DNA of 64,000 nt from positions 310,001-374,000 of the forward strand of contig NZ_JAUSUI010000001.1 of assembly GCF_030813495.1 (NCBI RefSeq). The letters are read 5' to 3'. This DNA is from Ancylobacter polymorphus. Lineage in GTDB: Bacteria > Pseudomonadota > Alphaproteobacteria > Rhizobiales > Xanthobacteraceae. The notes beneath the pieces were generated by a model that was not told the DNA's origin, made no database searches, and saw nothing but the letters and a program-made list of their open reading frames with translations. The position numbers and the translations under genes are program-made. Of this stretch, positions 12,784-56,824 are shown piece after piece. How positions within the stretch are numbered: position 1 is the stretch's first letter; each line of letters opens with the position of its first letter.

Positions 12784-12873
12784 GGAAGGGTGGCCGAGTG
12801 GTTTAAGGCAGCGGTCTTGAAAACCGCCGTGGGTGCAAGCCCACCGTGGGTTCGAATCCCACCCCTTCCGCCA
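12784..12873 (+). tRNA. tRNA-Ser (anticodon UGA)
   Basis: A 90-base cloverleaf: acceptor stem GGAAGGG/CCCTTCC, anticodon loop CTTGAAA giving UGA, a long variable arm typical of serine, T loop GTTCGAATC, and an encoded CCA. The integrase gene begins about 160 bases downstream, so this gene is the likely integration target and its 3' half the attachment core. Confidence 0.97.
12848..12873 (+). other. Candidate left attachment site (tRNA-Ser 3' end)
   Basis: P4-type integrases usually recombine within the T-arm and acceptor stem of the target tRNA, leaving an intact tRNA next to int. Here the tRNA is intact and abuts the integrase. The boundaries are approximate because the matching right copy lies outside the window. 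Confidence 0.5.
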
Positions 12874-27287: not shown

Positions 27288-27698
27288 TCAATCCGTCGGC
27301 GCGGTCACCGGCGCCCCGAAGGGGTAGCTGCTGCCGGCGAAGGTCGGCTCCAGGTACAGCGTGGCGAGGTCTTCCGGCGTGGTGATTGTGTGCAGCACCG
27401 CGCCCGTCTCGCGGTCGCCGATCAGTACGCACGCCTCGCCCTCAAGCGCCGGATCGCGCTCCGGCCGGGCGATGATGATGTACCAGCCCGGCAGATAGTC
27501 GCGCACCTCGCGCTCATAGGTCCCGCCCATGCCGTCTTCGGCGGCCTCGGTGCCGTTGACGCGATAGGCGCGGACATTGGGAATGACGCAGCTCGTATCC
27601 CACAGCCGGGCGCCGGGCTCGATCCCCTCAATCGTGAGGGCGGGGAGCGCAGCAAGGGCGGCCGCCTCGTCAGGGAAGCGCAGGAGATAATCGATCAT
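27288..27698 (-). CDS. Tail-fibre-cluster protein of unknown function
   Basis: 136 residues, acidic, beginning MIDYLLRFPDEAAALAALP and with GWYIIIARPERDP near residue 95. Small proteins of this kind often follow fibre genes and may assist fibre assembly or attachment, but no family is certain. It overlaps the fibre gene by 4 bases and is the last gene before the terminator-like hairpin. Confidence 0.7.
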   Translation of the reverse strand: MIDYLLRFPDEAAALAALPALTIEGIEPGARLWDTSCVIPNVRAYRVNGTEAAEDGMGGTYEREVRDYLPGWYIIIARPERDPALEGEACVLIGDRETGAVLHTITTPEDLATLYLEPTFAGSSYPFGAPVTAPTD

Positions 27699-47554: not shown

Positions 47555-48333
47555 CGAAGTTCCTCGCCAGATAAGGACGTCGATCAGCAGCAGAAGTGAT
47601 TGATGCCATTCATCAATCGCGCCCAGACCATACCAAGGATCAGCACCACCAATCAAGGAATATCGTCCGTCGAACCGGGCATGAATAGGAATGCAGTCGG
47701 TGGTGAGGGGCTCTTAGAGCCGAAATTCGCCGAGATGTCGGGGGCGACGAGGTCTCCCGCTCCGCCGGGGCGCGCGTACGGTCCCTAGTCTTCGCCGCTG
47801 ACGCCCGTCGCGCCTCCCGGGGCCAGTCCGCTGCCTCAACCCCGCTCCTTGCCGTCCTGCGCGCTCTCTATGGCTCGCGCCTCACGCCGAACCATCCAGC
47901 ACCAAGCACCGCACCCCATGCGTACCCGGTCATCACATGCCCCCGCGAAATGGGCCTGCCCCGTGCCTCGCTTCTCGCGTGCCCGGCTCGTGTCCGCCCT
48001 GTCATCTGGCCACGGTGCCAGGCGAACGAGTGACAGCGCGCGCGGAGCGCTTCCCTATGCCATGGGTGCGCACGGATCGCCCGGACCATCAGAGGCACCC
48101 CATGCCCCGCCTACCGCCCCTAGCAGGGCAGGGGATGCAACGCACATGCAACCGCATGCACGCCATGCCATGCGGCCCGATGTCGAGACGATGCGGCGCT
48201 TTGTGCGTGCCCCCACGACTGAAAATAAATGCAGGAAAGTTTGTTTTCCTCGCCCATAGAGTTGCAAAACAACTCCCAACATGCGACACTCTCTTATCGA
48301 AACAGACGGCAATTGTGCCAAAGGAAAAGACCA
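47555..48333. promoter_or_regulatory. Central control region between late and early genes
   Basis: About 780 bases without a supportable gene, between divergent operons. Open frames on both strands lack character. It includes a cluster of CATGC motifs (about 48140-48175) and an inverted repeat GTTG-CAAAA-CAAC at 48261-48273, both of which could bind regulators. Promoters in both directions are expected here but were not pinned down. Confidence 0.55.
48308..48319 (+). promoter_or_regulatory. AUYG-loop stem-loop, copy 1
   Basis: GGCA-ATTG-TGCC, 4 bp stem, loop ATTG. It ends 14 bases before the start of the gene at 48334, just upstream of its AAAGGA site. One of five such elements in the early region (see findings). 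Confidence 0.65.
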
Positions 48334-48630
48334 ATGAACCCCGCCGCACCCATCCCGCCGGCCAAACCCATCCCGCCCGCTGCGCCCCACATTCAAGCCG
48401 CCGCGCGGCGCATCTTCAACGGCAAGAAGTTCGCCACCAACGTCGAATGTCTCCGGGTGCTCTACAGCCTCGATATGGACGCGGCGGGCTTCGCCCGCAT
48501 GTTCGGGGGGGATGTGAGCATGGGGCAGGGTGCAATGTCCCATGCCACCTATGCGGAGGTCCGGGCGGTTCAGATCGAAGTCGAGGAGCTGCGCGCCCGC
48601 CGCGACATGCTCGCCGATCATTGGGCGTGA
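48334..48630 (+). CDS. Small phage protein with HTH-like C-terminal half
   Basis: 98 residues from ATG 48334 with an AAAGGA site. A proline-rich start (AAPIPPAKPIPPAAP) precedes NVECLRVLYSLDMDAAGFARMFGGD, which has helix-turn-helix character and resembles part of the regulator at 56510 (FARIFGT). It could be an early regulator. It is the first gene of the plus-strand early region. Confidence 0.65.
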   Translation: MNPAAPIPPAKPIPPAAPHIQAAARRIFNGKKFATNVECLRVLYSLDMDAAGFARMFGGDVSMGQGAMSHATYAEVRAVQIEVEELRARRDMLADHWA

Positions 48631-48637
48631 GGGCGTC

Positions 48638-48835
48638 ATGGACAGCGCATTTCCTACCGCCCGCTACCCGTCTTACACCACGGCTGAACTCGGAACATTC
48701 ATCGCTGAAGGTCGCGATTCCAAAGGCTGGATGCGGGACGAGATCGAACGGCGCGCGGCCGTCGCCGCTGGCGATATGTCTCGATCCACGGCGGGCGAAC
48801 GGCTTTATGCGGCGCGCGAAAGGGCTTCGCGATGA
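48638..48835 (+). CDS. Small phage protein, unknown
   Basis: 65 residues, ATG 48638. YTTAELGTFIAEGRDSKGWMRDEIERRAAVAAGD is a motif I associate with small phage proteins of unknown role. It overlaps the next gene by 4 bases (ATGA). Confidence 0.6.
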   Translation: MDSAFPTARYPSYTTAELGTFIAEGRDSKGWMRDEIERRAAVAAGDMSRSTAGERLYAARERASR

Positions 48836-49071
48836 ACGCTGCGGAGCGGATCCAAGCGGACGCACTCGCCAATCCGGCGCGCAACGACACGGCCCTGTTT
48901 ACGGCAGTCCGTGCGCTGGGCCTGACCATCCGCAAGCGCGAGGGCAAATATCGGATCACGGTTCCGGGCCTTCCGCCAGCACGTGCCGAGGCGGTTGCGG
49001 CCTACACCAACGACCGGGCCGACGCATGGGGAACGGCGCAATTCATGGCCGCCGAATTCAATCTCGCCTGA
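48832..49071 (+). CDS. Small phage protein, unknown
   Basis: 79 residues from ATG 48832. TALFTAVRALGLTIRKREGKYRITVPG and a helical end. Cotranslated with the upstream gene. Function unknown. Confidence 0.6.
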   Translation: MNAAERIQADALANPARNDTALFTAVRALGLTIRKREGKYRITVPGLPPARAEAVAAYTNDRADAWGTAQFMAAEFNLA

Positions 49072-49229
49072 GCCTTCCGCTTTGCCCATGCCGTGCGCGT
49101 GGGCCTTGCCGAGTGCTCGCAGGACCGTGCTGAACGGGCCAAGGGGTAATCGCCGCGCCGGCCGGATGCCGGCTCCGAAAGGGAGGTTGCCGCCATGGTT
49201 TGGTCGGTCTCCCTGCGCTGGAAAACGAA

Positions 49230-49300
49230 GAGGGCGACGGTCTGCATAACCATCGCCCTCGGGTTCTTCTGAAGCAGGCGCCGGGGGAGCAATCCCCCGG
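49230..49300 (+). terminator. Two strong hairpins between early sub-clusters
   Basis: First: GAGGGCGA/TCGCCCTC (49230-37 and 49253-60) with three further pairs inside, followed by GGGTTCTTC. Second: CCGGGGG/CCCCCGG (49281-87 and 49294-300) with an AGCAAT loop. They would stop or slow transcription between the first and second early sub-clusters. Confidence 0.55.
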
Positions 49301-49343
49301 TTGCCCGGAAAAGATAAGCCCGGCGCCCGCCGGCCGCAAGCCC

Positions 49344-49355
49344 GTCAATCGTGAC
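49344..49355 (+). promoter_or_regulatory. AUYG-loop stem-loop, copy 2
   Basis: GTCA-ATCG-TGAC, 4 bp stem, loop ATCG. 18 bases before the start at 49374, ahead of an AAAGGG site. Confidence 0.6.
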
Positions 49356-49373
49356 ACAGAGAAAGGGATTCCC

Positions 49374-49505
49374 ATGCCGACCATCGTTGACCGCAAGACC
49401 CGTGACGCGACCGCCGACGCCCGCAAGCGCCTTCTGCGCATGGCGCGGCAGGGCCGCATCGCGGTCAAGCACATGGCGCTTTCTGACAGCTTCATTCACG
49501 CGTGA
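49374..49505 (+). CDS. Very small phage protein
   Basis: 43 residues from ATG 49374 with an AAAGGGA site. Basic and helical (ADARKRLLRMARQGRIAVKH). Too short for family calls; clear start signal and its place at the head of a sub-cluster support it. Confidence 0.65.
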   Translation: MPTIVDRKTRDATADARKRLLRMARQGRIAVKHMALSDSFIHA

Positions 49506-49512
49506 CGCTGGC

Positions 49513-49842
49513 ATGTACCGCGCCGCCGTGATCCTCGCGGGCGCGCTGGCCGTGGCCTATGCCGCCACCTGCGCGCCTTCCCCGCCCTCGATGCCCCTGC
49601 ACGACCGGCTGGCCGTGCTGGCGCAGTCCGGATGCACCACTGACAGCGTGTGCGAGTTACGCGCGGCCGAGCTGGGCATAGATCCCGAATACGCCGCCGC
49701 GCCTTCCGATGCGCTCATGCAGGATTGCATGAAGGGCGATACCGCGGCCTGCCTCTACCTGGAGGCCGGGCACCGCGCCGAATGCGCGAATGACTTGGGG
49801 CACGACGACTGCGCCGTGTTCAGGGACGACAACAACCGCTGA
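49513..49842 (+). CDS. Exported cysteine-rich small protein
   Basis: 109 residues from ATG 49513. A signal peptide (about residues 1-19) is followed by a domain with seven cysteines (for example SGCTTDSVCEL, QDCMKGDTAACLY), suggesting disulfides in the periplasm. Unknown in function; phage-borne exported proteins sometimes alter the envelope or exclude other phages. Confidence 0.62.
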   Translation: MYRAAVILAGALAVAYAATCAPSPPSMPLHDRLAVLAQSGCTTDSVCELRAAELGIDPEYAAAPSDALMQDCMKGDTAACLYLEAGHRAECANDLGHDDCAVFRDDNNR

Positions 49843-49849
49843 TCCACCC

Positions 49850-49863
49850 CGGCAATTGTGCCG
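49850..49863 (+). promoter_or_regulatory. AUYG-loop stem-loop, copy 3
   Basis: CGGCA-ATTG-TGCCG, 5 bp stem, loop ATTG. 17 bases before the start at 49881. Confidence 0.65.
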
Positions 49864-49880
49864 AATTGAAAGAACCAGCC

Positions 49881-50741
49881 ATGAGCACCTTTGACAGCGA
49901 CGCCGCGCTTTCCGTCTGTGGAGTACCCGGCCGCCTGACGCACCGCACCACCAAGCCCGGCCCAGCGCCCGGCCTCTGGTTCCGCCAACGCTGGATAAGC
50001 GAAGCGCGCTCGGTCAACGGCTATGGCTGCCCCGCGTCCATGCGGGTTGAAATGCGCTTCGACGACGACCCGAGCAATGGGCACAACACATTCGCCATCA
50101 CTGCCGAGGTCTGGGCGGACAGCCGGCGGCGGCGCGACGACATGCTCGCCGGGGGCTGCATGCACGAAGAGATTGCCCGCGTATTCCCGGAACTCGCGCA
50201 CCTGATCCGCTGGCACCTTGTGAGCACGGACGGGCCTATGCACTACGTCGCGAACACCGTCTATTTCGCTGGCGATCGCGACCACAACGGCCTGCGTGCT
50301 GGCGAGCGTCGCGCACTCGTCAACGGCAAAACGAAGCTGCCGGTGTGGGAGTTGGTCGCCGTCACAAGCGGCCCGCACGGCGAGGGCGTCAAAATTTCCG
50401 ACACGGCTACCGGGCGCGAGTACATCGGCGCGGAAACCGTCCCGCTTTTCATCCTGACGAAAGACCACGACGGCGAGCACCCGCCGGCAACTCCCCGTCT
50501 GGAATGGCGGCGCAGGTTCCGCGTGGGCGAAGGCAAGGCGCGCGAGCTCGACAAGGCGCGTAATGCGGCCGTGTGGCCGGACGCCACGGACGAGGAATTG
50601 AGCCGCGAGCCTGCCGACCTGCGCGCCGCGCTTGTCGCTCGCCTTCCTGCCCTGCTTCAGGCGTTCCGCGCCGACATGGAGGCAATCGGCTTCCTCTGGT
50701 CGCCGGAGGATTTCAGAGCGGCCGAAGACGGGGAGGGCTGA
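49881..50741 (+). CDS. Phage protein of unknown function (286 residues)
   Basis: 286 residues from ATG 49881. Sequence shows mixed alpha/beta character (GLWFRQRWISEARSVNGYG, HEEIARVFPELAHLIRWH, and a charged C-terminal helix region). No domain recognised. It opens the longest early sub-cluster, a run of five tightly packed genes. Confidence 0.7.
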   Translation: MSTFDSDAALSVCGVPGRLTHRTTKPGPAPGLWFRQRWISEARSVNGYGCPASMRVEMRFDDDPSNGHNTFAITAEVWADSRRRRDDMLAGGCMHEEIARVFPELAHLIRWHLVSTDGPMHYVANTVYFAGDRDHNGLRAGERRALVNGKTKLPVWELVAVTSGPHGEGVKISDTATGREYIGAETVPLFILTKDHDGEHPPATPRLEWRRRFRVGEGKARELDKARNAAVWPDATDEELSREPADLRAALVARLPALLQAFRADMEAIGFLWSPEDFRAAEDGEG

Positions 50742-50744
50742 ACG

Positions 50745-50975
50745 ATGCTCCTCCCTCTCTACCTCCGGCGCGAGCCGACCACGGACCCGGTCTTGCGCAA
50801 ATATGCGCCGGACGCGCGCCGCCCTGACGTCGTCGCCTACCGCGACGCGGAATGCACCCGCCCGGCCGGCCGCTGGCCGTGGCACTACAAGCGCCCGGAC
50901 CGCCGGAACCGCTCCATCGTCCTCAACTGCTACCGCTGGCGCGCCGTGTGGCTGCCGCCGCTGCTGGAGGCCTGA
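50745..50975 (+). CDS. Small Arg/Trp-rich phage protein
   Basis: 76 residues from ATG 50745, 3 bases after the previous stop. Strongly basic with several tryptophans (GRWPWHYKRPDRRNRS). Could bind nucleic acid; no family known. Confidence 0.6.
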   Translation: MLLPLYLRREPTTDPVLRKYAPDARRPDVVAYRDAECTRPAGRWPWHYKRPDRRNRSIVLNCYRWRAVWLPPLLEA

Positions 50976-50977
50976 CC

Positions 50978-51571
50978 ATGCCTGTTGTAACCGATCACAT
51001 TCGCGGGCCGTGGCGCGCCGAAGGCTGGGAAAACCTCGTGGTAAACGATGCCGACGGCAACACCGTCGTGTGTTGCCCCGGCGGCTCCCGTGGCGCGACG
51101 CTCGACCAGCTCCAAGCGCGCGCCGCGCTGATCGCCGCAGCGCCTGAGACGGCGCGCCATAGGGACGCCCTGATTGACGCGCTGCACGACCTTCTCACGC
51201 GCCCGACCGACGCGGCGGCGCGGCTGCGCGCCAGAGCCGCCATCGAGGCCGCCAGTGTGCCCGCCGATCCTGCTGCGGAGGCATTGCGCCGGGCCGAATC
51301 CTTCATCGCCGGCTTCGAGGACGACGAAACACAGGAAGGCATTGCGGACCTACTGGCGACGATCCGCGCGGCCATCGCCGGCGCGCCCGCTGATCCCGTC
51401 CGCGATGCGGCCGGCGACATGCTGGCGCTTCTGAAAGGCGCACTCGAAGCTTGGCCCGAGATCGACACCGACGAAGAAATCAACGGCGGCGATATGGTCG
51501 AATGGTTCGGTGACTTCGCTGAACGCGCGGCCGGGATCATCGCCAAAGCGGAGGGCCACGCCAATGGCTGA
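50978..51571 (+). CDS. Phage protein of unknown function (197 residues)
   Basis: 197 residues from ATG 50978. An N-terminal small fold (HIRGPWRAEGWENLVVNDADG) precedes a long acidic helical region rich in Ala and Asp. It overlaps the next gene by 8 bases. Not recognised. Confidence 0.65.
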   Translation: MPVVTDHIRGPWRAEGWENLVVNDADGNTVVCCPGGSRGATLDQLQARAALIAAAPETARHRDALIDALHDLLTRPTDAAARLRARAAIEAASVPADPAAEALRRAESFIAGFEDDETQEGIADLLATIRAAIAGAPADPVRDAAGDMLALLKGALEAWPEIDTDEEINGGDMVEWFGDFAERAAGIIAKAEGHANG

Positions 51572-51914
51572 TATCGAGGGAATGACCGTCGTCTATTCCG
51601 GCGGGCCCGTGGCGTCGAACAATGGCCGCGTGGGTGTCGTGCTCGGCATCGTCCGCAATGGCTGGGTGGACGTGCAATTTGACGGCGACGCGGCGCCGAC
51701 AAAGTGCGCGCCTGACTTCCTGCACCCGATCCGTAACAGCCCGGTGCGCGTTGCGGCGCCCCACATGCTGGCTGCGCTCAAGACGATCCGGGATGACATG
51801 GAGCGCCTCGGCATCCATCGCTACTACAACGCGACGCGCGGCGAGGGTATCGGCGGCGCCTTTCGGGAGGTCGTGGACGCCATCGCGAAGGCGGAGGGCC
51901 GGGCCGATGGCTGA
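51564..51914 (+). CDS. Phage protein of unknown function (116 residues)
   Basis: 116 residues from ATG 51564. A beta-rich start (GMTVVYSGG, GVVLGIVRNGWVDVQFDGD) looks like a small barrel domain, and a C-terminal helical region follows. Overlaps neighbours on both sides. Confidence 0.65.
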   Translation: MADIEGMTVVYSGGPVASNNGRVGVVLGIVRNGWVDVQFDGDAAPTKCAPDFLHPIRNSPVRVAAPHMLAALKTIRDDMERLGIHRYYNATRGEGIGGAFREVVDAIAKAEGRADG

Positions 51915-52499
51915 CACGCTCAAGGTCTTCGCCGTCGTGATCGCCTGGTGCGACAGCGACTCCGATCAAGGCGATTGGGGCACCTATGTCCGCGCCCGAA
52001 ATCACCCAGAGGCGAAGAAGCTGGCCCGCCTCGCCATGCGCGCCGATTACATCGCCAACGAAGTGCCCGAAGGCGACGACCCGAACGCCTGGTGCGACCA
52101 GCATGAGGGAAGGACGGCTTCGGCGGGCGCGTCATTTCCTGCGACGAGGGCGCGGCCTGGCTTGCGCCGAATCTTGAGGCCGCGCTGCGCGCGCTGCTAC
52201 GGGAAGTCGACGAGATGGCTGCACGCGCTGGCTGGGCTGGCAACGGCGCCCGGGACGAAGCCCGCAAGACGCTGGCAGAGATCGACGCCGTTGAGGGCGC
52301 AGACGCCATCTATGCCAGCGCCGCTCGATCTGTCGGTTGGGAGCTTAGCGGCGACGGCCCGATCTGGTGGCACACCTCCCACGGCTCTTGGAAGAACGCG
52401 GCGAGCTGGGGCCGGACCTATGCGACGGCGCACGAGGTGATCGCGAGCGCGGACTATCCCGAATATCAAGGCGCCGAGGAGGGCGACAACCATGCCTGA
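51907..52499 (+). pseudogene. Phage gene interrupted by a frameshift
   Basis: From ATG 51907 the frame codes well to about residue 68 (DPNAWCDQHEG), then loses character. The -1 frame from 52110 continues naturally (KDGFGGRVISCDEGAAWLAP to EGADAIYASAARSVGWELS) and ends at 52499, 8 bases into the next gene. Adding one G in the run at 52107-52109 would restore a single protein of about 197 residues. This could be a real mutation, a sequencing error or programmed frameshifting. Confidence 0.7.
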
Positions 52500-52776
52500 G
52501 CACCCGAACGTTCGGCGCTTCCTCGACCTGTCGACGGCGCATATGAAGCCGCGCACGCGCGCCGAATGGGGGCTCGCCGCGCCGGGCCACGTCCACCCCA
52601 CCGAGTACGGGTTCTTCGTCTGGGCCGGCGACCACGAAGACGACGAGACGGACGAGGGATGGCCTCCAGAGGTCACCGCCTGCCGGCGCTTCGCCCGGTC
52701 CCTCGGCTGCGACTACCTGCTGTTCGACGGCGACGCCGACACGGTCGAAGGACTGGAGGTGTTCGATGACGAGTGA
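52492..52776 (+). CDS. DUF5983-like phage protein
   Basis: 94 residues from ATG 52492. FLDLSTAHMKPRTRAEWG, HPTEYGFFVW and CDYLLFDGDADTVEGL match the DUF5983 pattern. Members occur on plasmids and phages and have no known activity. Confidence 0.7.
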   Translation: MPEHPNVRRFLDLSTAHMKPRTRAEWGLAAPGHVHPTEYGFFVWAGDHEDDETDEGWPPEVTACRRFARSLGCDYLLFDGDADTVEGLEVFDDE

Positions 52777-53359
52777 GCGCACCGATGGCGGCCCGGCTTT
52801 CCCCCAGCACGTCGCGCCGGCTTACCGGCAAGAGCCTGAGATTTGGGGCATGTCCCTGCTCGACTGGCACGCCGGCCAGGCGCTGCCGGCGGTCATCATC
52901 GCCACGTCCGCGGGCCAGCATATGCCCACGATGCGCGCCGGTGACGACCACATTCGGGACGCCATCGCCCGCGACGCCTACGCCATGGGCCGCGCCATGC
53001 TGGCGGCGCGAAAGGGATTCGTCTTCACCGACGCCGAGCTCTTCAACTGCTGGTCCGGCGGCAAGGGCCCCACACGGGAGGAGGTGGCGCGCTTTGACTG
53101 GCTGGAAGTCGGCGGGTGCCGCGATGTCCATTCGGAGGAGGGTTGGACGGAGGAGGAGCGGGCGCGCTTCGGTACGTGCGTGGAAGGCTGCGACGACGCT
53201 GACGCGCAATTCTGGTCCGTCTACGGCCACTATCGCCCGACCGACACGCATGCCGGGTGCGAGTGCATCACGGACGGCCCGGCCGGCGACAAGGCGCGAG
53301 CATGGGCGATTGCGGAGCACCTCGGCCAGCTCTGGGGCTTGCCGGTGAAGGCGCGATGA
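52766..53359 (+). CDS. Phage protein of unknown function (197 residues)
   Basis: 197 residues from ATG 52766, overlapping the previous gene by 11 bases. DGGPAFPQ and GMSLLDWHAGQALP form a motif recurring in phage proteins of unknown role. A cysteine-rich C-terminal part (CVEGCDD, GCECITD) may bind metal. Confidence 0.65.
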   Translation: MTSERTDGGPAFPQHVAPAYRQEPEIWGMSLLDWHAGQALPAVIIATSAGQHMPTMRAGDDHIRDAIARDAYAMGRAMLAARKGFVFTDAELFNCWSGGKGPTREEVARFDWLEVGGCRDVHSEEGWTEEERARFGTCVEGCDDADAQFWSVYGHYRPTDTHAGCECITDGPAGDKARAWAIAEHLGQLWGLPVKAR

Positions 53360-53479
53360 GCAGCACCCGCTCGCCGCGTTGAGGCCCGACATGGAGCGCC
53401 TCACCTTATTAGCTCGTGGCCGGACATGGGAGCCGGCGCCGGCCCGCGAAACCGCCGCGTCTCCCGCCATTGAACGACC

Positions 53480-53491
53480 GCCAATTGTGGC
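53480..53491 (+). promoter_or_regulatory. AUYG-loop stem-loop, copy 4
   Basis: GCCA-ATTG-TGGC, 4 bp stem, loop ATTG. 22 bases before the sliding clamp start at 53514, ahead of its AAGGAGA site. Confidence 0.65.
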
Positions 53492-53513
53492 AAAGCAAAA
53501 GGAGAACACCCGC

Positions 53514-54635
53514 ATGACCACCACCATCGTTTCCCGCGCCGACCTGCGTCCCGCCGTTGCTATCGCCAGCGACATCGTCGCGCGGCGGACGAGGGACGCC
53601 ATCCTCGCCAACGCGCTCTTGACGGCACACCCCGAGGGCGGCGCCATGCTTCGCACGACGGATCTGGATCGCCAGGTGACCGTCCGCCTGCCGGAGGCCT
53701 GCATCGACGAACGGTTTGCCACCACGGTTCCGATTCACGCGCTGAAGACGGTTGAAGGTAAGGCGCCGCCGACCGATCACGTCGCGCTCGACGTCGACGC
53801 CGCCGGTGGCAACGCGCTCGACTTCGAGGGGCTGCGCGTGAGCATGGCGGGCCTCCCGGTGGAACAGTTCCCCGAAATGAAGGTCGAAGGGGAAATCCAC
53901 GCGCAATTCGATATCGCCAGCGCCGCGCTACGCGAAGGTCTGGAGGCCATCAGCCTCGCCATGTCGACGGAGGAGGCGCGGTACTATCTCAATGGCGTAT
54001 TCATGCACCCCATCCCGGAGGGCGGCGGGATCCGCTTCGTCGCGACGGACGGGCACAAGCTCGCCCTGCACGACATTCCGATGGAGGGTGCCGGGGCCGG
54101 CTGGGGCTGCATCATCCCGCGCCAGACAGTCGCCTTCCTCATCAAGGTGCTCAAGTCCAAGGGCGTCGCCACCACCGCGCGCGTGCTCGTCAACACCGTC
54201 AAGGCGGCGATCACGGTCGGCAATGTCGACGTCATCACCAAGCTGGTTGAAGGCACCTATCCCGACTATGGCCGCGTGATGCCGCGCGAGGGCACCACCT
54301 TCGCCGTCGTCGACCGCAAGGCCATGATCGCAGCGGTCAAGGCCGTGTCGGCAATCCAGTCAGAGCGCGGCCGCGCGGCGCGGTTCCTCATCGAGGCCGG
54401 ACGGGTGACGCTCTCCGTCAGCAATCCCGAAATGGGCAGGGCCGAAATGGCTGTCCCGGCCCTCGTCACCGGCGACGAGCTCCACATCGGGTTCAACTCG
54501 GCATACGTGCTGGCGATCCTCGATGCCACCGATACGGAAGCGGTCGAGTTTCGGTTCGGCGACGCTGGGTCGCCGGCCGTCGTCCAGGGCTGCGGCGCTG
54601 CCACCCGCTATGTCGTCATGCCGATGCGCGTGTGA
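53514..54635 (+). CDS. Phage-encoded DNA polymerase III beta (sliding clamp) homologue
   Basis: 373 residues from ATG 53514 with an AAGGAGA site. The three-domain DnaN pattern is present: an N-terminal domain with RTTDLDRQVTVRLPE, YYLNGVFMHP and ATDGHKLALHDIPM in the middle, EGTYPDYGRVMP near residue 245, and YVVMPMRV at the end, the position that shapes the partner-binding pocket. The clamp would hold a polymerase on phage DNA, so replication may use this clamp in place of the host's. Companion polymerase genes are not seen in the window. Confidence 0.9.
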   Translation: MTTTIVSRADLRPAVAIASDIVARRTRDAILANALLTAHPEGGAMLRTTDLDRQVTVRLPEACIDERFATTVPIHALKTVEGKAPPTDHVALDVDAAGGNALDFEGLRVSMAGLPVEQFPEMKVEGEIHAQFDIASAALREGLEAISLAMSTEEARYYLNGVFMHPIPEGGGIRFVATDGHKLALHDIPMEGAGAGWGCIIPRQTVAFLIKVLKSKGVATTARVLVNTVKAAITVGNVDVITKLVEGTYPDYGRVMPREGTTFAVVDRKAMIAAVKAVSAIQSERGRAARFLIEAGRVTLSVSNPEMGRAEMAVPALVTGDELHIGFNSAYVLAILDATDTEAVEFRFGDAGSPAVVQGCGAATRYVVMPMRV

Positions 54636-54883
54636 TGGCGGCGGAAAGCCATCGCGCGGGCTGGGAGCGGGTGCCATACCCGTTCCCGGTCGGCACCAAG
54701 GTCGAGGGCGTCGACGCCGCAGGCCAGCGGTTCGCCGGCACGGTCGACGCGATCATCGGCCCCTACAGCGTCCGGGTCGACGGGGTCGGCACGCCAGTGA
54801 GCATGATCACGACCGTGCCAAACACTGCTCCCATTAGCGCTGCCGTAACGGGCGACGAGCTAGACTATTTCGAAGGCAATTAA
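54635..54883 (+). CDS. Small phage protein following the clamp
   Basis: 82 residues from ATG 54635, whose first base overlaps the clamp stop (TGATG), so translation is coupled. Beta-rich (PFPVGTKVEGVDAAGQRFAG). Unknown function. Confidence 0.65.
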   Translation: MAAESHRAGWERVPYPFPVGTKVEGVDAAGQRFAGTVDAIIGPYSVRVDGVGTPVSMITTVPNTAPISAAVTGDELDYFEGN

Positions 54884-54900
54884 AGCTGCGGAGGACGAGA

Positions 54901-55227
54901 ATGGAACAATCGGGTTTGGACGCCAAGCGATGGCATGTCGTTGTGCTCAGACTTTCGACGGGCAAAGAGCATTACGTTTTCGACGGCAACGATTACGACA
55001 GCGCCGTCTCCAGATGGAACAATTACCAAGCGGATGTGGATGTGCTCATCGTCGAAATCGAGGAGTGGCAGCTCGTCGACGAATCGGTTTGGCATCCGGT
55101 CGTTGTCAGACGGCAGTCGGTCCGTCGACGCTCGGACGGCATGATGGTCGAAACCGCCGGCAAACCCGTTAAGATGACACGGGGTGGCGAAGCGACGGCG
55201 AAGCTGCGAGAGTTCTCGACCGACTGA
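54901..55227 (+). CDS. Phage protein of unknown function (108 residues)
   Basis: 108 residues from ATG 54901 with a GGAGGAC site. WHVVVLRLSTGKEHYVF and VDVLIVEIEEWQLVD suggest a small beta-rich fold. Closes the clamp sub-cluster. Confidence 0.65.
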   Translation: MEQSGLDAKRWHVVVLRLSTGKEHYVFDGNDYDSAVSRWNNYQADVDVLIVEIEEWQLVDESVWHPVVVRRQSVRRRSDGMMVETAGKPVKMTRGGEATAKLREFSTD

Positions 55228-55235
55228 ATCGGCTC

Positions 55236-55249
55236 CTCCAATTGTGGAG
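55236..55249 (+). promoter_or_regulatory. AUYG-loop stem-loop, copy 5 (hides the ribosome site)
   Basis: CTCCA-ATTG-TGGAG, 5 bp stem, loop ATTG. The GGAG of the 3' arm is the only ribosome site for the ATG at 55259 (9 bases later), so when folded the stem-loop would block translation. Confidence 0.68.
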
Positions 55250-55258
55250 AACCAAAAG

Positions 55259-56582
55259 ATGCGAGTCGATCTCGCCCCGGGCCACGGCATCGCCCTCAAG
55301 TATGCCAACCGCCACGGCCTCGTTACCGGCACCACCGGCTCCGGCAAGACCGTCACCCTGCAGAAGCTCGCCGAGGGCTTCGGCGCCGCCGGCGTGCCGG
55401 TCTTCGCCTGCGACGTGAAGGGCGATCTGTCCGGCATTTCCACGGGCTTTCCGGCCCGGTTCTGGGATATCTTCGGCGAGCAGGGGATGCCCATCAAGAC
55501 GTCGGTCGACGAGATGGGTCCGGACCTGGTGGCGCGGCTACTGGGGCTGAACGTCACGCAGGAAGGCCTCCTGCACATCGCCTTCCGCTGGCTGGCCGAT
55601 CCCGATTTCCACCCCGGCCCCGCCTACATGATGGACATGAACGGGCTGCGCGCCAGCGTGACCGACATGCTGGACCACCGGGAAGAGTTGCGGATCCGGC
55701 ACGGCAACGTCACCGCCACGTCGGTTGGCGCCATCCAGCGCTCAATGCTGGTGCTGGAAGGGCAAGGCGGCGGTCACCTCTTCGGCGAGCCATCGTTTCG
55801 GGTTGAGGATTTGCTCGCCACGGCACCAGACGGGCGCGGCATCATCAACCTGCTGGCCGCCGATCGGCTGATGGATTCGCCGCGCACCTATGGCGCTTTC
55901 CTGCTGTGGCTGTTGCTGCGCCTGTTCGCGATCCTCCCGGAGGCCGGCGACCTCGACAAGCCGAAGCTGGTCCTGTTCCTCGACGAGGCGCACCTGCTGT
56001 TCGACGGCGCTTCCAAGACGCTGCTGGAGACGATCGAGCGCACCGTCCGCCTGATCCGCTCCAAGGCTGTCGGCGTCTACTTCGTGACGCAGCACCCGCT
56101 CGACGTGCCGCCATCGGTCCTGTCACAGCTCGGCAACCGCGTGCAACATGCGCTGCGCGCCTTCACCCCGCGCGACGCGCGCCGTGCGCACCGCGGCCGA
56201 GACCTTTCGTCAGAACCCGACCATCAACGCCGAGCGCGAGATCACAGAGATGGGCACGGGCGAGGCGCTGGTGTCCTTCCTCGACGCCACCGGCGTGCCC
56301 AGCGCCGTCGACAAGATCAAGGTGGACATGCCGGCCGCGCACGTCGGGCCGATCAAGTTCGCCCAGCGGATGGAGATGATCCGCCAGGATCCGCTCGCCG
56401 AGCGCTACGGCGCGACCTTCGCCAACCGAGACGAGATGTTCGCCGCCTTCCGCGCGCGGATCGAGAGCAACCAGGCCGAACAGGCCGCGAAAGCAGAGGA
56501 GGTCCCGTCATGGCGCCGCGCTTCGAATACGACCGCCTCACCGCTGACCAGTTCCGCGCCGGGCTCCGCGACGCCGACATGA
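55259..56582 (+). pseudogene. DUF853/HerA-like ATPase, frameshifted
   Basis: From ATG 55259: Walker A GTTGSGKT (residues 24-31), CDVKGDLSGIS, GIINLLAADRLM, Walker B LVLFLDEAHLL, and RVQHALRAFTPRDA are all typical of DUF853 (HerA-like hexameric ATPases). Near 56175-56185, in a GCGCGC run, the frame breaks. The +1 frame continues with the family sequence (ETFRQNPTINAEREITEM, GTGEALVSFLDATGVPSAVD) and ends at 56582. Two missing bases (GC) in the run would give one protein of about 440 residues. HerA-like proteins move DNA in recombination or repair. As written the gene yields a protein cut in the C-terminal part; error or mutation cannot be separated. Confidence 0.78.
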
Positions 56583-56824
56583 CGCCGCAGACCTTCGCCC
56601 GGATATTCGGCACCCGGCTGGAGGTGGTGGAGCGCTGGCTCGCCGGCACGCAGGACATCCCGCCGTGGACCGCGCCTGTGCTGCGCATGCTCCAAGTGCC
56701 GGCCGCCGTGGCGGCGGCGCGGGCGGCGGCGGCGGAGATGATCCGGGGAGACAATCTGCGACCGGAGTTGGGGACTTACCCCTACAAGCGCCTCGACATG
56801 ATCCACGGTGAAGGTAATCTGTAG
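56510..56824 (+). CDS. Small HTH DNA-binding protein
   Basis: 104 residues from ATG 56510, inside the 3' end of the broken ATPase frame. DMTPQTFARIFGTRLEVVERWLAG with IPPW is an XRE-like helix-turn-helix. It may regulate early genes or lysogeny. It shows partial similarity to the small protein at 48334. Confidence 0.75.
   Translation: MAPRFEYDRLTADQFRAGLRDADMTPQTFARIFGTRLEVVERWLAGTQDIPPWTAPVLRMLQVPAAVAAARAAAAEMIRGDNLRPELGTYPYKRLDMIHGEGNL

Follow-up and report, generated by a model that had tools for sequence, protein, structure and literature searches.

To our knowledge, a translational regulator of phages either controls a single gene by way of a hairpin or controls many genes whose sites are unstructured. 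In antitermination of the lambda type, the N protein acts with the boxB hairpin of the nut sites, which has a GNRA-like loop. Aca2 is a helix-turn-helix (HTH) protein of phages that is reported to bind both DNA and RNA stem-loops and controls an acr-aca operon. In phage T4, the DNA polymerase gp43 represses its own translation at a leader hairpin 5' of the ribosome site, and the sites of RegA are unstructured and A+U-rich and overlap the AUG or lie just 5' of it (both according to the available part of PMC3014915). Here we describe five short RNA hairpins in the early region of a prophage of Ancylobacter polymorphus, located in a stretch of 64,000 nucleotides that was analysed as a whole (the window). 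In our reading, to which we give a probability of about 0.5, the hairpins serve as RNA operators where translation starts independently, and they would be read by a phage protein, likeliest a small arginine-rich (Arg-rich) one, and would probably repress translation; both the binding and its direction are what we infer.

As far as the same part of that source describes it, the gp43 operator is similar in that a hairpin precedes the ribosome site in the leader of a phage replication gene, with loop bases kept between phages; unlike it, the present element gave up to 16 matches of model R1 per record, and the candidate readers are not polymerases. With RegA, as described there, our proposal shares one phage protein acting at the translation starts of many early genes, whereas the sites found here are covarying hairpins. 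The likeness to N/boxB lies in a short Arg-rich segment, which is predicted to be helical here, a hairpin of ~5 bp and a fixed small loop, but the loops here are AYNG and not GNRA-like, the sites abut Shine-Dalgarno (SD) sequences, and the small Arg-rich proteins of the carriers have 32-65 residues, for which a PDB profile search gave no sequence homology. Aca2 is comparable as a phage HTH protein with a stem-loop by the ribosome site; in contrast, many early genes are concerned here, and the Foldseek match is weak (Aca2 chains at E values of 0.10 to 0.52). As in phage RNA translational operators, the translation starts were found to have a conserved RNA structure. Literature listings turned up no paper on this hairpin element, and Rfam gave, above the gathering score in the whole window, only a tRNA at 12784-12870 and no family for the hairpins.

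Five hairpins in early-gene leaders

A sequence-only reading of the window had proposed five stem-loops closed by an A-T pair. Their coordinates, loops and closing pairs were all verified, on the plus strand throughout (Table 1), and the distances to the start codons, given earlier as 9-22 bases, are 14, 18, 17, 22 and 9 nucleotides (nt) for hairpins 1 to 5. The ribosome site of hairpin 5 had been placed in the 3' arm, and GGAG was found there, whereas the likely SD of hairpins 1-4 lies outside the stem. In the 4.71-Mb host genome the motif CAATYGTG was counted 59 times, which gives an expectation of 0.088 per 7 kb, and the chance of at least five in 7 kb is ~4e-8 (Poisson; strand, pairing and position not yet counted). 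One more stemmed CAATCGTG, the sixth, was found at 27629; it is without SD or start and was regarded as chance.

The early genes of the prophage lie on the plus strand from ~48.3 to 56.8 kb. Based on our own gene list, a hairpin is present at all five window genes with a clear upstream gap (the first gene, and four with gaps of 302, 38, 154 and 31 nt), and 12 packed genes have none. Ten of the packed genes overlap the previous listed gene or start at most 17 nt from it. The remaining two, at 52492 and 56510, are separated by 291 and 363 nt from the listed gene before them and were judged packed only on the overlapping open reading frames (ORFs) in another frame, 52215-52499 and 56148-56582, which look like the ends of frame-broken genes. 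Because gapped genes carry hairpins and packed ones do not, it appears that a hairpin marks each place where translation starts independently, and coupled genes could be controlled jointly; each hairpin was found in the leader of a gene that opens a packed cluster, in agreement with the sub-cluster heads described earlier. At 71 of 79 measured sites, the SD starts 3-9 nt past the 4-bp stem.

Table 1. Hairpins and protein-coding features of the prophage early region, in window coordinates
Feature	Start	End	Strand	Remarks
Hairpin 1	48308	48319	+	GGCA-ATTG-TGCC; 5' of ORF 48334; model R1 match
ORF 48334, hairpin-led	48334	48630	+	98 residues; no Pfam or PHROG family
Hairpin 2	49344	49355	+	GTCA-ATCG-TGAC; 5' of the small Arg-rich protein gene; model R1 match
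Small Arg-rich protein	49374	49505	+	43 residues; net charge +6; predicted helix; led by hairpin 2
Hairpin 3	49850	49863	+	CGGCA-ATTG-TGCCG; 5' of ORF 49881; model R1 match
ORF 49881, hairpin-led	49881	50741	+	286 residues; phrog_17696
Hairpin 4	53480	53491	+	GCCA-ATTG-TGGC; 5' of the phage sliding-clamp gene; model R1 match
Phage DNA polymerase III beta clamp, hairpin-led	53514	54635	+	Pfam PF02768, PF02767; phrog_947
Hairpin 5	55236	55249	+	CTCCA-ATTG-TGGAG; 5' of the HerA-like ATPase ORF; model R1 match
HerA-like ATPase, hairpin-led, part before the frame departure	55259	56146	+	PF05872 on ORF 55259-56824; end approximate, no stop codon
HTH-fold protein	56510	56824	+	104 residues; hairpin 5 heads its cluster

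Model R1 gave exactly the five hairpins in the host genome (G000) at E ≤ 0.3; the R1 searches used strict filters, with which some weak matches were lost. Over 149 genomes of the family, clusters in the own genome, G062 and G145 were among the matches listed, and since the six matches in G062 are spaced as in record G154, the two are taken as the same prophage. Among the 15 matching records that were not controls, 13 had been chosen by hairpin and therefore match by construction; two records chosen by their HTH protein were also R1-positive, and one of 21 controls gave a weak match (19.5 bits).

Some viral contigs have many copies of the hairpin with differing arms. An SD-including GCCAATCGTGGC scan of viral contigs gave 43 stretches on 37 contigs compared to 14 on 14 for a scrambled-loop control, and many of the 43 resemble chance matches inside genes. 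In a pattern scan of genome contigs, three loci with at least two stemmed cores on one strand were among the matches listed, with L418 (Bauldia) clearly real.

Related phages were scanned for the element as well, namely those with relatives of the clamp (RR1-A, AmM-1, 16-3 and two RHph phages), of the protein of ORF 49881 (UAntarctica, JWF, Lana, Stilesk and KASIA) or of a methyltransferase (RHph_TM3_3_3 and ZS04). R1 gave no match at E ≤ 0.003 in these 12 whole records. As phages with relatives of the clamp and the 49881 protein lack R1 matches, neither protein explains the hairpins, and both were rejected as an explanation of the element.

Pairing, covariation and loop consensus

Pairing was tested at CAAYNGTG sites from 13 records, which were taken regardless of the pairing of their flanks and split by the presence of SD and start. 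Watson-Crick pairing at the SD-linked sites (n = 88) was found 84 times for pair 1, 82 times for pair 2, 40 times for pair 3 and 6 times for pair 4, and the corresponding counts at the sites without SD and start (n = 116) were 34, 35, 32 and 31. Because complementarity drops at pairs 3 and 4, the stem was taken as 4-5 pairs. The SD rule of this test overlooks the window's hairpin 5 and the corresponding hairpin in G154, so that both are counted among the 116. Most records had been reached via hairpins with GCC/GGC-type arms and some of the 88 sites are search seeds, and the test was therefore repeated. With matches to the seed 12-mers removed, pair 1 was present in 41/45 and pair 2 in 39/45. 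In five records that were not chosen by hairpin and were reached through proteins only (G145 and those of L513, L517, L522 and L526), both pairs were present at 14/14 sites, compared to 4/31 and 10/31 for pairs 1 and 2 at sites without SD.

The covariation score was 0.440, against 0.091 ± 0.015 for shuffled and at most 0.100 for slid controls, with 73 cells changed on both sides; the set comprised 74 of 81 distinct sequences (7 were left out), all picked because their first two flanking positions pair. The same kind of variation was found in orthologous leaders. Those of the clamp gene keep the core in 7 of 8, with C-G, G-C or T-A at pair 1, and in the eighth, from G153, the closing A is replaced by G. 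The leaders of the small-protein gene keep it in 12 of 13, where pair 1 is T-A in 2, G-C in 5 and C-G in 5. The selected RNA structure proposed in the sequence-only reading is strongly supported by the pairing tests and the covariation in related phages, the orthologous leaders and the placement 5' of the SD; an absence of covariation in related phages, which that reading had named as refuting, was checked for and did not refute it. We consider it almost certain that the RNA hairpin is under selection, and highly probable that it acts on the translation start or the leader.

The five hairpins are members of a larger phage family, nnnCA[AYNG]UGnnn, in which the SD follows a stem of 4-5 bp after a few bases. 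Among hairpins that combine a loop of 4 nt with four or more stem pairs, an SD and a start, the top cores were CAATCGTG (37) and CAATTGTG (19) in 16 regions of 11 records, in which any core outside the CAAYNGTG family was seen at most 3 times. When the inner pairs were left free, the cores before an SD in 18 sequences were CA-ATCG-TG (39), CA-ATTG-TG (21) and CA-ACTG-TG (7), followed by the loops ACCG, ATGG and ATAG with 2 each, and other cores were seen at most 3 times. At the SD-linked CAAYNGTG sites the loops were AUCG in 43, AUUG in 24, ACUG in 7, AUGG and ACCG in 5 each, and AUAG and ACGG in 2 each. Earlier the element had been described as a kept AUYG loop on complementary arms that differ in sequence. 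The loop is indeed kept; based on the core counts before SDs in the relatives, AYNG is the better formula, and the arms are not entirely free, as only the outer 2-3 stem pairs vary and the C-G next to the closing A-T is kept.

The choice of loop may matter, as the small-protein leaders have mostly AUCG and the clamp leaders AUUG. All 8 clamp-gene hairpins examined (53480 in the window and those of L470, L471, L473, L476, L479, L481 and L485) have the AUUG loop. Records G155, G158 and G159 (L239, L207 and L212) have AUAGGGCAAUUGUGCCUAU before their SDs, with a longer stem and a bulged G on the 5' side; no match to the HTH protein was found in this group, which consists of fragments. In Shewanella phage KASIA, a lone CAATAGTG hairpin at L295:13302 is followed by an SD and ATG.

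Candidate readers and rival explanations

The sequence-only reading had offered an RNA-binding repressor, a processing enzyme or a shared translational switch. The repressor or switch is the idea that survives best, and two candidate proteins may be named for it. A phage RNA-binding protein would recognise the C-A-[AYNG]-U-G head of a short stem and, when bound, would sit against or over the SD. Once enough protein was made, initiation would be shut at the independent starts of the early operon and the coupled genes would follow. It is highly probable that a protein of the phage reads the hairpin; this would most likely be the small Arg-rich protein and its relatives, with the HTH protein as second candidate or partner. 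Because the small-protein gene usually has an operator of its own and binding would abut the SD, autogenous translational repression would be expected. Repression seems somewhat more probable than activation.

Three features make the small protein the more probable of the two readers: its strongly basic character (net charges from +5 to +9, in 11/11 copies), the prediction of a single helix (predicted local distance difference test score, pLDDT, of 86) and its usual position under a hairpin of its own (12/13 records). We hold its binding to the hairpin at a little short of an even chance, since most copies were first noticed as hairpin-led ORFs. A hidden Markov model (HMM) from nine copies, searched against 60,746 small ORFs, found hairpin carriers only before E = 2.1, and a held-out copy in L088, which is hairpin-led, was matched at 1.7e-9. 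A search of contigs with the small protein gave 181 candidate stretches, of which 6 were confirmed, and four of these belong to already known records. In contigs L522 and L526, found via the small protein alone, a hairpin directly precedes its gene; L522 has 2 hairpin-SD sites and matches the HTH protein at 4e-27, and L526 has 6 such sites and matches it at 1e-22. A profile search of 385 genomes of the class gave the own genome (1e-14) and one weak match (7e-4) in a frame of 435 residues, with no CAAYNGTG in the 2.5 kb examined near it. At E ≤ 0.05 the small protein had no match in PHROGs (nine copies) or Pfam (eight copies), and tblastn of one copy gave none in plasmids and none in 50,697 GenBank phage records at E up to 10, for which the short query is a weak test. 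The latter result, together with that for the HTH protein below, may explain why the system was overlooked.

More tentatively, this could be a portable phage system, in which a protein of ~40 residues, rich in Arg, reads C-A-[AYNG]-U-G on a free stem at up to ~16 early sites per phage, with an HTH partner nearby. If true, such a regulon, with its covarying hairpins and a candidate reader of ~40 residues, would amount to a small RNA-protein pair that can be tested, of value for studying the timing of early genes in temperate phages and perhaps as an orthogonal tool.

Several observations weigh against our reading of operators bound by the Arg-rich protein. The stems are weak by energy, with ordinary single-sequence folding energies for the five hairpins (z -1.23 to +0.40), and our case is therefore built on covariation and placement, not on stability. 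The carriers share early-region ancestry and most of them also the clamp, and the association is not proof of binding; L522 is close to G152 in leaders and small protein and is thus not a fully independent draw. The hairpin-led count of the small-protein gene is partly selection, as nine copies were spotted among hairpin-led ORFs and those found otherwise give 3/4, and in G149 the gene is without a core. By HMM the small protein was found in 12 of the 15 HTH-positive records; it is missing from G151 and from the 20 kb of G551 examined, and the G153 copy was assigned from position and composition only. A PDB profile search for known RNA-binding peptide structures gave no match (best E 1.4).

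That the HTH-fold protein binds the hairpins and controls translation, as Aca2 is reported to do with stem-loops, the Arg-rich gene being just one of those regulated, is rather unlikely, although its distribution is the wider one. The family was found in 15 hairpin records: the 10 that built profile A2, the held-out carrier G156 (3e-25), L513, L517, L522 and L526. L513 and L517 are new contigs from scans with subsets of the HTH family and both have a hairpin-SD site, and their whole records gave 2 (G551) and 1 (G552) R1 matches. Of the 385 genomes of the class, profile A2 matched only the own one at E ≤ 1e-8, with up to 14 candidates scored in each; among the 12 named phages without hairpins it matched only 16-3, marginally (best 0.0013). 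The HTH gene is itself hairpin-led in G149, G150 and G157, with pair 2 broken in G157, but the window copy is without its own hairpin. No HTH match was found in six records with one or few hairpins (G155, G158, G159, G160, G161 and G165), including G161 with a hairpin at E = 1e-6; these are fragments and were not counted as proof. The AlphaFold model (pLDDT 79) has the HTH arrangement, and its Foldseek list contains HigA2, Aca1 and Aca2; all matches are at E > 0.01, however, with antitoxin or DNA-binding proteins at the top. Other members of the family gave weak HTH matches below the cut-off, the window copy had no Pfam family at E ≤ 1, and tblastn of one copy gave none in the 50,697 phage records at E up to 0.1, again a weak test with a short query. 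The domain is neutral to acidic (net charge -3 to +2), which also argues against RNA binding by this protein, and its binding to the hairpin seems doubtful to us; both proteins could act together.

A structured element ahead of every independent initiation site would also suit end protection or cleavage, by which a nuclease or 5'-end factor, of the phage or of the host, would fix the 5' ends of early mRNAs per cluster. We consider such a processing or stability element improbable, as the kept loop and the tight SD spacing would be superfluous for mere end protection and the host genome has no further R1 copy at the cut-off given above. The N4-like phage RNA polymerase reads a hairpin promoter as single strand, and an element repeated ahead of early genes could be such a promoter or a repressor operator in DNA, but this is very unlikely, since the pairing excess is at sites pointing to SD and start, with little leader left for a downstream transcription start, the arms covary freely, unlike in a double-stranded DNA operator, and no giant virion RNA polymerase was seen in 13 incomplete carrier records (largest ORF 366 to 1282 residues).

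Neighbouring genes

Many structural genes of the window prophage resemble those of Aurantimonas phage AmM-1 at low identity. A protein with an RMF-like domain (PF04957; for example at L469:3187-3777) was found in G149, G150, G151, G152 and G157, on other contigs in G145 and G167, and weakly in ZS04. No such domain was found in the host genome at E ≤ 0.05, and the protein, considered as a ribosome partner, was set aside. The 3' part of the HerA-like ATPase ORF leaves the frame of its G154 sibling, and the matching end was found in ORF 56148-56582; the departure may reflect a broken gene or a sequencing error. There is a second probable frame break, as the ORF from 51907 seems to be continued in 52215-52499 (51907-52499). 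The DUF5983 protein encoded at 52492-52776 has relatives in the carriers G145, G149, G150 and G157.

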